This document shows positions 6,577 to 32,763 of a stretch of 38,062 nt of DNA, one piece after another. Location of the stretch: the IMG/VR virus record IMGVR_UViG_3300020182_000083, positions 1 through 38,062 of that record; one strand, 5' to 3'. A program made the translations under genes and the position numbers. The DNA comes from a virus. Under the pieces are notes generated by a model. It was not told the DNA's origin, searched no databases, and saw only the letters and a list, made by a program, of their open reading frames with translations. Position 1 is the stretch's first letter, and every line of letters starts with the position of its first letter.

Positions 6577-6843
6577 GTGGAACCATTGCAGATAGGAGGG
6601 AGGACATACACGCTGCAGCTTGCGCCCAACCCTGTACTGCCCACAGCAGACATCATCGCTGACTTAGTTGTTGACTTCTTAACCGACTTCAACACCAGAC
6701 GCCACCCCGAACAGGAAGCGATCTGGGATAAATACAGGGAAACCATCTTGTACGACTGCGAAATTCTTGCAGCCCAACTCAGGCACACGGCAAGAACCAT
6801 CCACGCATGGCAGTACCTGCCCGCCGACGGAGGAGAAGAATGA
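6577..6843 (+). CDS. Hypothetical protein, GTG start
   Basis: 88 residues from a GTG two bases after the previous stop. Its own stop overlaps the helicase ATG (ATGA). The protein begins with a short beta hairpin (LQIGGRTYTLQLAP) and continues with helices (TADIIADLVVDFLTDFNTRR, YDCEILAAQLRHTARTIHAW). No motif is recognised. The tight coupling to the helicase suggests a partner, for instance a loader or regulator, but this is only positional inference. Confidence 0.7.
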   Translation: MEPLQIGGRTYTLQLAPNPVLPTADIIADLVVDFLTDFNTRRHPEQEAIWDKYRETILYDCEILAAQLRHTARTIHAWQYLPADGGEE

Positions 6844-7814
6844 GCATCGAGTTACAACAAGAAACAGACACACCTTCTCTTGGCCTTGAGGAGCGGGAAG
6901 CCGCACTCTTGGCCGAGAGGTCAGGCTGGCTGTTCCGCCCATCAGCCTCACTACTAAACGACCCCGATCTCACCCCGCCCATCCCGTTTGGGCTACCCGA
7001 AATCGACACAGCCCTTGGAGGTGGCCTCAGGGCTGGACTCCACCTGCTTGTAGGGTTCCAACACAACGGCAAAACCCAGCTCCTGCTGCGCCTCTTACAT
7101 GAGAACAGGGACAAGCCAATGATCCTGTTCTCACCCGATGAAGACGCCGAGCAAGTCATGTTCAAACTCATCTCGCTCGTAACGGAAACCCCCCTAACCG
7201 AAATCCTCGGCATGAGTGCCAGTTGGAAACGAGGGATCATCACCGAGTGGTTCCCCCTCCTCGCCATAGACGACGAGAAGCGATCCAAATACGACATGAT
7301 CACCTACATCCAGGAGGCAGAACAGTTCTGGCAACAGAAAGTAAAGATGTGCGCATACGACTACATGGGGTATTTGGCCAGCTCACGAGGCGAAGACTTC
7401 GGAGGGTCCATGCAGAAGGCAGCGAACGTAGCCAAAGACCTGGCCCGAGACACCCGCATCCCCTGGCTAATGCTGCACCAGGCCAACCGTTCGGCATCGA
7501 AAGGCGGGCAACTCTCAGCCTCATCCCTTTCATACGGCGGTGAACAGCAAGCCGTGACCATCCTCACAGTCCGACGACCACAACCGTCAGACCCGAGCAT
7601 GACCACACGAGACCAGATGCAGGAGGAACACCAGCCCCTCCTGACTGTAGGCATGATCAAGAACAAACAGACCTACAATTACCTCGACGGCAAGTGGCAA
7701 GGCCACGAAGTACAATACGCCATCACCAAAGAGTCAGGGCTTGTGCGGCCCATCAAGCCAGGAGACCTGTTACTTTCAGGGATCAGAGATGTCAGGCCAG
7801 GAGGCTACCGGTAA
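6840..7814 (+). CDS. RecA-fold ATPase, DnaB/RadA-like replicative helicase
   Basis: 324 residues from the ATG at 6840, which overlaps the previous stop. An 11-residue upstream extension is only basic read-through. Walker A is GFQHNGKT (residues 72-79), Walker B ends in CAYDY (Asp174) and a sensor-like MLHQANR (211-217) follows, as in RecA, RadA and DnaB-type ATPases. The LGGGLRAGLHLLVG lead-in to Walker A is typical of KaiC/RadA-like proteins. The most likely role is a phage replicative helicase unwinding DNA with the primase encoded next. A recombination ATPase is the alternative. The primase start overlaps its stop as TAATG. Confidence 0.85.
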   Translation: MSIELQQETDTPSLGLEEREAALLAERSGWLFRPSASLLNDPDLTPPIPFGLPEIDTALGGGLRAGLHLLVGFQHNGKTQLLLRLLHENRDKPMILFSPDEDAEQVMFKLISLVTETPLTEILGMSASWKRGIITEWFPLLAIDDEKRSKYDMITYIQEAEQFWQQKVKMCAYDYMGYLASSRGEDFGGSMQKAANVAKDLARDTRIPWLMLHQANRSASKGGQLSASSLSYGGEQQAVTILTVRRPQPSDPSMTTRDQMQEEHQPLLTVGMIKNKQTYNYLDGKWQGHEVQYAITKESGLVRPIKPGDLLLSGIRDVRPGGYR

Positions 7815-8743
7815 TGAGACTAGTGACCGACGAGATGGAAGAATCCATTCGGGCCGAACGAACAGACCTGTTCTACGAACTGTTTGAAGGGCGGGAAGAC
7901 GTAGCGTTTGTCGATCAGCCGCACCCTCACCAAGAAAAACTTGAAGAAGGAGACATGTTCAGCCTGGTTGACCTCCACCTCCACGGCTCCACCCCCATTG
8001 GCATCTACCCGCTCGAAGGAGGCAACCGGTGCAAATGGATCTGCAGCGACTTCGACACCAGCGAGGCAGAAGAACTCGCATGGCGATACGCCGAGGCATG
8101 GGAATACTACGGCATCCAAGCCTGGGTCGAAACATCCCGTTCCAAGGGATACCACGTCTGGGTGTTCGCAGACGACTGGATGAGCGGCACCATCGCACGA
8201 CGCGCAGGGTTGTGGGTCCACGAGCTAGCGGAGATCGAGGCGATTGAACTCAACCCCAAACAAGAACTCCTTGAAACAGGAGGCTACGGGAACTGTGTCC
8301 GCCTCCCCTACCCGGCAGCAGGCGCAGGGACAGTACGCCAAGTAATGTGGGCCGACCGCTCCACCCCCCTAGAAATCGATGACTGGCTAGACCAAGTCGA
8401 AGAGTACCGCACGCCAGTCCCATCCCTGCAACGCCTGGCAGCGCTCTGGAAACCCAAGCCGGTACAGCGCACACAATCGAGCTTCAACGGAGACAGGACG
8501 GGAGGTAGGGGTGAGAACAACTCGCACATCGTGTCAGTATTCAGGGGCGAAACTGACGTGAAGAAAGGCGAGAGGGACTTAGTGTTCTTCACCCTTGCCT
8601 CCCACCTCAAAGGCATGGGTATGGACCGAGACGAAGCCATCTCAGTAGTCCAAGAAGTATGGGAAGAACAAACCGAAGACAAAGCTTCCTTCCCATACAA
8701 AGAAGCAGTCAGTAAAGTCCACCGAGTCTACAACCAAGGATAA
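7814..8743 (+). CDS. Archaeo-eukaryotic-type primase (AEP/PrimPol)
   Basis: 309 residues from the ATG at 7814, in TAATG coupling with the helicase. The AEP core is visible: CSDFDTSEAEE with the metal-binding Asp79 and Asp81, the nucleotide-binding SKGYHVWVF (Ser110 to His114), and a third strand with NCVRLPYP (about 161-167). A linker follows near residues 210-240. The C-terminal helical part (RDLVFFTLASHLKGMGMDRD, then EAISVVQEVWEE) resembles the PriCT domain often fused to these primases. It makes primers and may extend them, as PrimPols do. With no DNA polymerase gene in the genome, its activity may matter more than usual. Confidence 0.85.
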   Translation: MRLVTDEMEESIRAERTDLFYELFEGREDVAFVDQPHPHQEKLEEGDMFSLVDLHLHGSTPIGIYPLEGGNRCKWICSDFDTSEAEELAWRYAEAWEYYGIQAWVETSRSKGYHVWVFADDWMSGTIARRAGLWVHELAEIEAIELNPKQELLETGGYGNCVRLPYPAAGAGTVRQVMWADRSTPLEIDDWLDQVEEYRTPVPSLQRLAALWKPKPVQRTQSSFNGDRTGGRGENNSHIVSVFRGETDVKKGERDLVFFTLASHLKGMGMDRDEAISVVQEVWEEQTEDKASFPYKEAVSKVHRVYNQG

Positions 8744-29889: not shown

Positions 29890-30000
29890 TGACATGTGTC
29901 ACATGTGAAATGCGTCACATCGGGCGTTTGGTTGCTTCATTTACGCAGCAAGCGCTTCGTCGATGCAATGGTCATGTGTCACATGGTCATGTGTCACACA
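29890..30000. repeat. Four ATGYGTCACAY repeats (iteron or operator cluster)
   Basis: Copies of an 11-base motif: ATGTGTCACAT (29894-29904), ATGCGTCACAT (29910-29920), ATGTGTCACAT (29974-29984) and ATGTGTCACAC (29989-29999). Spacing is 16 bases within the first pair, 15 within the second, and 80 between pairs. The first site also lies in palindromes GTGACATGTGTCAC and TCACATGTGA. Repeats on one face of the helix beside an AT-rich stretch suggest a replication origin or a multi-site repressor operator. Confidence 0.6.
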
Positions 30001-30092
30001 CTGGGAATGGTTCTTATTCCTATTCCCCACTGCCGGCTCTAGTGCTTCGCAAATGAAGCAGGCGCTAACTATATGATTAATTAGATTAGGGC
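29933..30092. other. Candidate replication origin: inverted repeats and AT-rich segment
   Basis: TGCTTCATTT (29933-29942) is repeated inverted as AAATGAAGCA (30051-30060), enclosing the second repeat pair. The right arm also forms a local hairpin TGCTTC / GAAGCA (30043-30048 and 30055-30060). Just beyond, 30066-30092 is AT-rich around ATGATTAATTAGATTAG. The plus strand is C-rich to the left and G-rich to the right of this zone, and genes diverge from it. Together these are signs of an origin. No DnaA boxes are assigned with confidence. Confidence 0.5.
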
Positions 30093-30123
30093 GCACCCTT
30101 TACTGTTGGTTTAGGGTTGGGGT

Positions 30124-30203
30124 AATCCGCATTGGTGCTGGCATTGCGCCCATTTGTTGCTGGCGAGCAATCCGCATTAGTGCCGGGGTTGCACTCATTT
30201 GTT
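30124..30203. repeat. Two 35-base direct repeats, 45-base period
   Basis: Copy one is 30124-30158 and copy two 30169-30203. Both start AATCCGCATT and end CATTTGTT, with about six differences between. They lie between the AT-rich segment and the G-rich RNA-like region. They could be protein-binding sites next to an origin. Confidence 0.6.
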
Positions 30204-30696
30204 AGTTGGTGCTTAGGTAGTGAATCGTCGCGAGGTTAGTGGGTGGCGGGGTAGGTGTGGCCGGGCCTTGGGGGCTGTTAGGGGCGATTGTGGGGGCTGT
30301 TTGTTACGTTTGTGACAGCATTGTTTCGGTTGTGTTACAGAGTGGCTTCGGGTTGTGTTGGGAGGTCGGCGGGGTGTTAGGTTCTAGCCGTTGCCGAGTT
30401 AGGGGCAGCGAGACGGTACCTCAGGCCCTCGGGCCTTGGGGCATGTGCCGTCCGATGTTCTTTGACAACTTGCACCGCTACCTAGTAGCGCTACCGACAT
30501 AACGAACGCGGATTCTAACTCCGATGGCGATGGGCGCAGTGTGGGAAGTAGTGGTCTATAGGTTCCCTGGTTCTGGTGTGAATACCTGGCAGGCATGGAG
30601 GGAACAAGCTAGCAAGACTTGCCTTGGGGCAGGACTAGACGGTGTCGGATGGGATTACCCCGCGACGCTCAGTGAGTCCGGCTCTAGGGCAAGTGG
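30204..30696 (+). other. G-rich gene-free region with several RNA hairpins
   Basis: Open frames here have poor composition and no ribosome sites. Hairpins on the plus strand: CGTTGCC / GGCAGCG (30389-30395, 30404-30410), AGGCCC / GGGCCT (30423-30428, 30431-30436), CGCTAC / GTAGCG (30476-30481, 30485-30490), and GTTCCCT / AGGGAAC (30562-30568, 30599-30605). A TTGACA at 30462-30467 lacks a fitting -10 box. Together with the folded element that follows, this looks like a long leader or non-coding RNA. Confidence 0.4.
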
Positions 30697-30849
30697 TCTA
30701 GTAGAGCCACCAACGTGGTAGCTCGTCCGGTCGTAGGAAATACCCCTACGTGGTAGCTGGTCCTGTCCGGGCCAGTGCAGAAGCGGACGAGTGCAGAAGC
30801 GGCGAGAGTCGGTCGTGGTGGCTCTACTAGATCGGGGGATGTTCCCCCG
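30697..30849 (+). ncRNA. Strongly folded RNA element upstream of the accessory operon
   Basis: A perfect 16-base inverted repeat, TCTAGTAGAGCCACCA (30697-30712) and TGGTGGCTCTACTAGA (30816-30831), closes a branched fold. Inside are a stem CTCGTCCG / CGGACGAG (30722-30729, 30784-30791) and two hairpins within it: CGTAGG / CCTACG (30732-30737, 30745-30750) and CTGGTCC / GGGCCAG (30757-30763, 30769-30775). A GC hairpin CGGGGG / CCCCCG (30833-30838, 30844-30849) follows, then the ribosome site of the next gene. A competing hairpin, 30704-30712 with 30716-30724, would break the outer stem, which suggests a switch. It may be a cis-regulatory RNA or the end of a larger one. Confidence 0.6.
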
Positions 30850-30870
30850 CGCTAAGAGAGAGAGAGACAC

Positions 30871-31188
30871 ATGATGGGACACAATCCGATGTATCAGCCC
30901 GAGTCTGTTGAGACAGTGGAACGTCTGGATCACGACCAGGCGTTAGAGTATTCGTTGAACCTGCTGGAAATGGCGATGCTAGACGAGCATTATGACCTAG
31001 CTCGGACAGCTCGCGAGTCTATCGCTGCTATCTGGCGGCATAAGACAAGCGACTTCGGCGGCATGTTTGTGGCGATGGTGATGCATGGCAAGCGGATAGA
31101 CGCCGACTGTGGCCTTTATCTAGAACGCGGCATGACCTACCATAGGGATGGCGATACGTACCTTGCTACGTGGTCGCTTCATAGCTAG
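30871..31188 (+). CDS. Hypothetical protein, first gene of the accessory operon
   Basis: 105 residues behind AGAGAGAGAGACAC and directly after the folded RNA element. It is mainly helical and acidic (HDQALEYSLNLLEMAMLDEH, LARTARESIAAIWRHKTSD), with a small end containing one cysteine. It starts at the first of two adjacent ATG codons. No family was recognised. The GA-rich leader is shared with the next gene, which suggests matched, efficient translation. Confidence 0.7.
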   Translation: MMGHNPMYQPESVETVERLDHDQALEYSLNLLEMAMLDEHYDLARTARESIAAIWRHKTSDFGGMFVAMVMHGKRIDADCGLYLERGMTYHRDGDTYLATWSLHS

Positions 31189-31265
31189 TCGGTTAGTCCA
31201 GCTAGGGCTATCGGGCGTATGTCCGATGGTCTCATGGTGAACTACACCAAGAGAGAGAGAAAGCC

Positions 31266-32120
31266 ATGCCAGGAACAACCAAGGTAACCAGCGCTCGGGT
31301 CTACATGTCGGACGAGGTCCGAGACGACTACCGAACCTATGCGGAATTCCGTACACAGTTCGGTTTCGTTCATCGTCCCGGGGTCGTAAAGATATTGACC
31401 CAACCGACGGACAATTCGAAACTTGATAAGTCCACACTACCTACGTGGGGGCTGTCGCTAGCACCGCACACTATCGCTCGTGACTACTGCAGGGCGCACG
31501 GCATCCAGTCGGGGTATTCCGTGCCCGACCAGTGTCCACATGCGACTGTTGAATGTAGCGCTAACTGTTTGCAGGCTAACGGTAACGGACGATATGAGAG
31601 CGCACAGCTCGGGCGGATCTGTAAGACGGTATTCGCTCACACCTACCCGGAGGCGTTCGCTCGGATCGTAGAGCATGAGGTTAGGTCCAACCTTGCGACA
31701 ACTCTCGGTGAGTGTTTGCATCGGCTCAACGTGTTGAGCGACCGACGCTGGGAAGTACTACTTCCACGGGTGTTCAAGCTGCGGGATCCGTTGGGTCGTC
31801 TGGCCCGGTTCTACGATTACAGCAAGATTCCGGCTCAGATCCGTGAACGCAACCGACCAACGAACTACCACCTGACATATTCGGCCACCGAACATACTAC
31901 TGTCGACGCTATCCGGTCGATGGTCGACGCTGGACACAGTGTGGCTGTCGTGATTCGGGCCAAGGCCAGCGAGCTGGACGTGCCGACGTGGCACGGTATG
32001 GACGCCACGAACGGCGACCTGCACGATGACCGAACACAGGACAGCGCCGGGGTTGTGCTGCTGTCGGCTAAGGGTACGATGCGACGCTCCCCGATGGCTA
32101 AAGAACTAGCGACGGCATGA
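31266..32120 (+). CDS. GP88-family phage protein
   Basis: 284 residues. The pattern matches the phage GP88 family (gene product 88 of mycobacteriophages and relatives): GLSLAPHTIA, a cysteine block C-X6-C-X3-C (Cys90, Cys97, Cys101, in DQCPHATVECSANC) followed by LQANGNGRYESAQLGRICKT with Cys119, then FYDYSKIP, NYHLTYSATEH, SVAVVIRA and GDLHDDRTQD. The function of the family is unknown. The cysteines could hold a metal or an iron-sulphur cluster. Its leader AAGAGAGAGAGA is like that of the previous gene. The 77-base gap before it holds no gene. Confidence 0.8.
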   Translation: MPGTTKVTSARVYMSDEVRDDYRTYAEFRTQFGFVHRPGVVKILTQPTDNSKLDKSTLPTWGLSLAPHTIARDYCRAHGIQSGYSVPDQCPHATVECSANCLQANGNGRYESAQLGRICKTVFAHTYPEAFARIVEHEVRSNLATTLGECLHRLNVLSDRRWEVLLPRVFKLRDPLGRLARFYDYSKIPAQIRERNRPTNYHLTYSATEHTTVDAIRSMVDAGHSVAVVIRAKASELDVPTWHGMDATNGDLHDDRTQDSAGVVLLSAKGTMRRSPMAKELATA

Positions 32121-32433: not shown

Positions 32434-32444
32434 GCAACCAACCA

Positions 32445-32476
32445 CCAACCAACCAACCAACCAACCAACCAACCAA
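32445..32476 (+). repeat. Eight perfect CCAA units before a ribosome site
   Basis: Pure tetranucleotide repeat ending directly in GGAG of the 32488 gene. Slippage would change leader length without touching codons. It mirrors the tract at 32181-32217, so the arrangement CCAA-repeat then AAGGAG occurs before two consecutive genes. Confidence 0.85.
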
Positions 32477-32487
32477 GGAGAGATGAA

Positions 32488-32763
32488 ATGATATGGAACG
32501 ACGTAGACATCGAAATGGCCGAGGCTATCCAAGCGAGCGACCATCGGGCAACCCTGCTCAGTGGGGACGGAATGAGTGAGGAGGACATGAGGGAGTGCGA
32601 AAGGTGTGCAACTGTATGGTTGGACGCCGGTTACTACGACGGGGGGTTCGACGCTGTGATCCACACTCTGGAAGACAACCCGATGTGGCGACCGACCGAT
32701 GAGCAGTTTGATGAGATGCAATGGAATAGCTGGCATGCCAGCGAGGAAGGCAAGCGACAATGA
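32488..32763 (+). CDS. Hypothetical acidic protein
   Basis: 91 residues with AAGGAGAGATGAA before the ATG. Acidic and helical with a Cys-Glu-Arg-Cys segment (MRECERCATVWLDAGYYDGG) and tryptophans near the end (NPMWRPTDEQFDEMQWNSWH). Its stop overlaps the next start. The family is not recognised. High acidity suggests a protein-binding role, perhaps as an inhibitor. Confidence 0.7.
   Translation: MIWNDVDIEMAEAIQASDHRATLLSGDGMSEEDMRECERCATVWLDAGYYDGGFDAVIHTLEDNPMWRPTDEQFDEMQWNSWHASEEGKRQ

Follow-up and report, generated by a model that had tools for sequence, protein, structure and literature searches.

What is the branched RNA fold that lies directly before the first gene of a rightward operon in this viral DNA, and what might the phage use it for? 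The window, as we call the whole 38,062-nt stretch analyzed, is IMG/VR virus record IMGVR_UViG_3300020182_000083, from a podovirus-like phage whose early operon, on the replication side, is the one in question. A preliminary description had proposed a branched and possibly switching RNA at this site. The branched element is real, its fold being stronger than that of shuffled sequence and its stems covarying in related phages. The 16-base inverted repeat TCTAGTAGAGCCACCA / TGGTGGCTCTACTAGA (30697-30712 / 30816-30831) is perfect, as described, and no other perfect inverted repeat in the window reaches 14 bases with arms no more than 400 nt apart. The other parts that had been pointed out are likewise in the minimum-energy fold: an inner stem of eight bases (30722-30729/30784-30791), hairpins within it, and the GC hairpin, after which comes the ribosome-binding site (RBS). 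For region 30680-30860 the minimum free energy was -94.4 kcal/mol, a value equaled by 0 of 200 shuffles (z -5.7; dinucleotide shuffles, -67.1 +/- 4.8 kcal/mol). The z-score was -6.2 for 30691-30860 and -0.6 for the preceding 290 nt of leader, and when both strands were scanned from 29900 to 31279 in 120-nt windows, the most extreme values came from the plus-strand windows starting at 30620 and 30680 (z -3.2). Feature coordinates are collected in the table. Hairpin P0 contains a GGCTCTA that could alternatively base-pair to the left P1 arm.

Table. Features of the leader, the RNA element and their surroundings (window coordinates unless a relative is named).
Feature	Position	Strand	Remarks
Leader and first-gene cassette	29950-31188; L004 896-2034; L015 6165-7311		Differs in each relative
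GTTGCC, putative transcription start zone	30390..30395	+	Follows a TANNNT-like -10 region; alignment of window, L004, L015 and L014
Hairpin just 5' of boxA (boxB position in rrn leaders)	30412..30452	+	RNAfold of 30390-30475
CCGATGTTCTTTGACAA, with rRNA-type boxA TGTTCTTTGACAA (30456-30468)	30452..30468	+	17-nt exact match to L004 leader
Strong hairpin P0, directly 5' of the element	30617..30694	+	RNAfold, -46.9 kcal/mol
RNA element	30695..30833	+	P1 plus its whole interior; P1 pair probabilities near 1 except for the first pair
Closing stem P1	30695-30711 with 30817-30833	+	Fold, pair probabilities
Outer motif copy	30717..30798	+	GGUAG 30717-30721, P2 30722-30729/30784-30791, UGCAGAA 30792-30798
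Hairpin P3, between the two GGUAG strands	30733..30749	+	Pair probabilities about 0.99
Inner motif copy	30752..30782	+	GGUAG 30752-30756, P4 30757-30763/30769-30775, UGCAGAA 30776-30782
Short hairpin P5 (CGGC GAGA GUCG), 3' of outer copy	30800..30811	+	Minimum-energy fold
GC hairpin without U-run, not a terminator	30833..30849	+	Fold
RBS AGAGAGAGAGAGA	30854..30867	+	Same type as other operon genes
First operon gene, 105-aa orphan	30871..31188	+	Absent from L004, L015 and L014
Nested element in L014	within 4659-4495	minus	

Both pairs of repeated pieces that had been reported are present (30699-30732/30734-30767 at 76% and 30768/30784 at 88%), and they have a common basis that the preliminary description missed: together they make up both strands of a single motif, 5'-GGUAG-[stem]-UGYAGAA-3', which occurs twice, with one copy nested in the other. 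The longer repeat suggests a tandem duplication. The loop letters are invariant across copies, apart from C or U in UGYAGAA. For the loop formed by the motif, RNAfold predicts GUA-UGC pairs with the last G of GGUAG bulged and AGAA mostly single-stranded, at probabilities of 0.5-0.7; other, non-canonical geometries are possible. The letters GUA and GAA led us to consider a sarcin-ricin-like loop, in place of which RNAfold prefers the pairing just given.

Close and distant relatives of the phage were found by terminase searches. A distant one, L014/L016 (TerL 71-72%), has the same nested element at the same place, right after the putative transcription start. The leader of L004/L009 has two tandem motif copies (a and b), about 35 and 97 nt 3' of a boxA sequence discussed below, and L015 has a 50-nt leader with neither element nor boxA. 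The carriers thus comprise three distinct leaders (window, L014/L016 and L004/L009), and in all three the element comes directly after the putative early promoter, ahead of the first gene. Just as P5 follows the outer copy in the window, there is a hairpin behind the outer copy of L014 and behind copy a of L004.

Covariation was assessed on the six motif copies in these three leaders by aligning the loop-adjacent stem bases of each copy, such that copies from the same phage are paralogues and the motif definition derives from the same leaders as the test. All 22 of 22 stem cells were paired, with two-sided changes at three of the four pairs. The covariation score was 0.82, compared with 0.28 +/- 0.12 in shuffles and at most 0.17 when the partner strand was slid; sliding it by 1-3 columns left just 27-46% of cells paired. 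As controls, we counted motifs whose stem had at least 3 pairs: 176 kb of unselected loci contained none, and 1.2 Mb of loci picked for the motif letters contained 18, scattered and with no nested layout. Fold strength is lower in the relatives, with z -2.2 for the L014 element and 0.2 for the L004 motif region (-3.2 for its distal domain). Motif conservation and covariation carry the case for the element more than energy does. In L004 the stems of copy a had probabilities of about 0.93, those of copy b 0.16-0.63.

These observations bear on whether the structure might be a chance palindrome, a mobile inverted repeat or a coding sequence taken for RNA structure. Such a reading could draw on the surroundings, as the region of about 29.95-31.19 kb, between a conserved left arm and the likewise conserved GP88 gene, is a hypervariable cassette that is replaced in L004 and L015. 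It is very unlikely, and already contradicted by the covariation, the layout kept in L014, a z-score of about -6 and the lack of a second copy in the phage; across the element, moreover, no open frame is preceded by the AGAGAG-type RBS of the real genes.

The switching part of the preliminary description fared less well. The competing hairpin at 30704-30724 does exist, with -8.4 kcal/mol on its own, but it is favored by short transcripts only and its ensemble probability in the full-length RNA is zero. A transient co-transcriptional fold is possible, and in L014 GGUAGC and the left P1 arm can form a weak hairpin early on. From 30390 to 30930 we found no U-run of at least 4 and no anti-RBS of the CTCTCT type, and no terminator-like site follows the element; neither expression platform usual for riboswitches, a terminator or RBS sequestration, is thus present. 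The gene after the element also differs between carriers: the window has the orphan, L004 a gene for a 71-aa protein and L014 yet another. Because of this difference and the lack of a terminator or anti-RBS, a ligand switch is not supported, and a metabolite riboswitch or a thermosensor, which would give the suggested switching its mutually exclusive folds, is highly improbable in spite of the hairpin favored in early transcripts and its possible weaker analog in L014. For the same reason, that the downstream gene changes, the element belongs to the head of the operon and not to one gene. Where the window's first gene reaches its stop codon, L004 and L015 become homologous to the window again, and the same downstream operon stands behind the 50-nt leader of L015.

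The sequence upstream gives the element its context. GTTGCC at the putative start is common to all four leaders, and no match to the sigma-70 consensus was found there. Counted from this point, the leader would be roughly 480 nt long and untranslated, with the element forming its 3' domain. The longest exact match between the otherwise unalignable leaders of the window and L004 is CCGATGTTCTTTGACAA. It includes TGTTCTTTGACAA, which is best read as a boxA because similar sequences adjoin 16S genes in the genomes examined, namely GGTCTTTGAAAACTC before 16S (L181) and CGTACTTTGAGAAC and TGTTCTTTAACAAT after 16S (L182 and L183, respectively); the pattern also matched in draft genomes without rRNA nearby. 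In rrn and nut anti-termination, boxA serves to recruit NusB/S10 (PMC10250234, PMC6614801). TGTTCTTTGACAA is present in the leaders of the window and L004, and hence in two of the three element carriers; no boxA was found in the L014 or L015 leaders. In the window a hairpin ends just before boxA, which is the rrn order. L004 likewise has a hairpin upstream, yet its predicted fold pairs boxA itself.

Since the element is tied to the operon head rather than to any one gene, and boxA lies upstream in two of three carriers, we consider it best explained, by analogy and tentatively, as a cis-acting transcription leader with anti-termination or anti-pausing activity of the nut, rrn or put kind. BoxA (30456) would recruit the host NusB/S10 machinery, and the rigid P1 stem would present the two loop motifs to a partner, which could be polymerase, a Nus factor or a phage protein. 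Polymerase might then resist pausing and termination across the downstream operon, as with nut, rrn leader and put RNAs. The invariant loop letters, the covarying stems and the nested layout shared with L014/L016 fit such a role, as do the boxA-containing 17-mer common to the window and L004, which resembles the rrn boxA beside 16S, and the lack of a terminator, U-run or anti-RBS after the element. Against it, L014 has the element without a recognizable boxA and the L015 operon has neither, intrinsic terminators in the operon are not beyond chance, and the fold predicted for the window leader leaves little of boxA unpaired.

Comparison with known systems gives a similarly mixed picture. Like HK022 putL/putR, the element is a structured RNA 3' of an early phage promoter with two hairpin units and a proposed cis action on the elongating polymerase. 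put RNAs are about 70 nt long with two adjacent stem-loops (PMC9378689), whereas the element is about 140 nt and nested, and that paper mentions no boxA for put. Other hallmarks of put RNA are binding to the beta' zinc-binding domain of RNA polymerase and protein-independent anti-termination in cis; for boxA-dependent leaders of the nut or rrn type, a further one is read-through that depends on Nus factors. When scanned, HK022 putL/putR had no GGUAG and no UGYAGAA in the two-stem region; this lack of motif similarity counts against the anti-termination reading and led us to reject a sequence-level similarity to put, although a put-like mode of action is still compatible with such dissimilarity. 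With lambda nut (boxA + boxB, N protein) the window shares a boxA in an early phage leader, but no boxB 3' of and adjacent to boxA was identified, its hairpin lies 5' as in rrn, and the element stands about 250 nt beyond boxA. The bacterial rrn leader (boxB-boxA-boxC) is similar in its order of hairpin, boxA and long helix enclosing structured RNA; here, by contrast, no rRNA lies inside, no boxC was recognized, about 105 nt are enclosed and an mRNA follows. BoxA is the only nut or rrn feature recognized.

The rrn resemblance (PMC10250234) can also be taken in another direction, in which the element is an RNA processing or stability module. An RNase III-type cut of P1, like the cutting of rRNA leader-trailer helices, would release a compact RNA of 100-140 nt and leave a protective hairpin at the 5' end of the operon mRNA. 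P1, with 16 perfect contiguous pairs around about 105 nt, would suit such a cut, and strong hairpins precede the RBS in several intergenic gaps of these operons. The invariant GGUAG/UGYAGAA letters would however be left unexplained, and the L004 motifs sit outside the long stem; we regard this serious rival as unlikely. A second serious rival, and in our estimation a doubtful one, is a protein-binding operator, in which a phage or host protein on the two loops would regulate translation or decay of the operon by autogenous feedback. Two small hairpins with invariant loop letters would be typical of a bivalent protein site, but no long complementary stretch sequesters the RBS, the first gene differs between carriers, and no RNA-binding protein was identified in the operon.

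It is possible, though rather improbable, that the element represents a new class of phage-encoded processive anti-termination (or anti-pausing) RNA, in which an rRNA-type boxA and a duplicated GGUAG/UGYAGAA module replace N-boxB or put and are swapped as a leader cassette. To our knowledge, few RNA-encoded ways of modifying RNA polymerase have been found, and covariation-supported RNA families restricted to uncultured phages have seldom been described. Were polymerase modified here, phages would have one more solution alongside nut/N and put, and this in a lineage without a close cultured representative. The signature of the motif would let other such elements be found, and a compact loop motif that is used twice with invariant letters lends itself to direct mutational tests.

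The RNA family is new in that the searches of Rfam, GenBank phages, PLSDB plasmids and GTDB genomes gave no match to it. The earlier statement that no known riboswitch or tRNA is recognized was borne out: Rfam 15 gave no match at gathering thresholds (chance-level snoRNA matches only, up to E 5), and ARAGORN reported no tRNA or tmRNA. The published candidates of PMC2864571 are likewise conserved structured RNAs with covariation support, and were compared as far as Rfam contains them. BLASTN gave no match to GenBank phages with the region and 24 kb of the window, or to PLSDB with the element. The strict nested pattern occurred in IMG/VR in this family only, plus coding or chance matches; with the relaxed pattern, among the matches listed, no fetched locus outside the family had the nested fold. 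Of 20 matches in a GTDB pattern scan none had the nested structure, two having long inner stems in long open frames. TerL had no match in GTDB genomes, and no host was therefore found. Searches with TerS, the 34386 protein and the small gene of L004/L014 returned the same contigs alone. The nearest GenBank phage, MW202803, is a 42-kb record labeled Podoviridae with a TerL 40% identical, and has no copy of the element. Structured early-operon leader RNAs have precedents as a kind; literature searches on anti-termination RNA elements of actinobacterial phages gave nothing closer.

Several other features of the locus deserve mention. The GP88 family protein (PF17338, phrog_1617; 31266-32120) is common to the window, L004 and L015. 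A hairpin precedes the open reading frame at 31266, whereas the CCAA-repeat tract at 32434-32480, just before the frame at 32488, is almost unstructured. The same operon in L014 has strong hairpins in the intergenic gaps before several of its genes (minus strand, about 4130-2900), and a repeated sequence, CGCTAGTGGTGGCTCTAT, accompanies two of them. Upstream of the putative promoter, a 35-nt direct repeat (83%, spacing 45) at 30124-30203 may provide regulator-binding or origin repeats. An exact 15-nt tandem repeat, ATGGTCATGTGTCAC, is found at 29968-29997, and L004 and L015 have recurring GTCACATGTG boxes ahead of the promoter; both are possible operator sites. The divergent intergenic region has an 18-nt inverted repeat (29933-29950 / 30043-30060; 89%) with arms 92 nt apart. 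Elsewhere in the window, positions 6807-8743 encode a DnaB-like helicase and, after it, a primase that matches an AEP-TOTE domain (PF22548).
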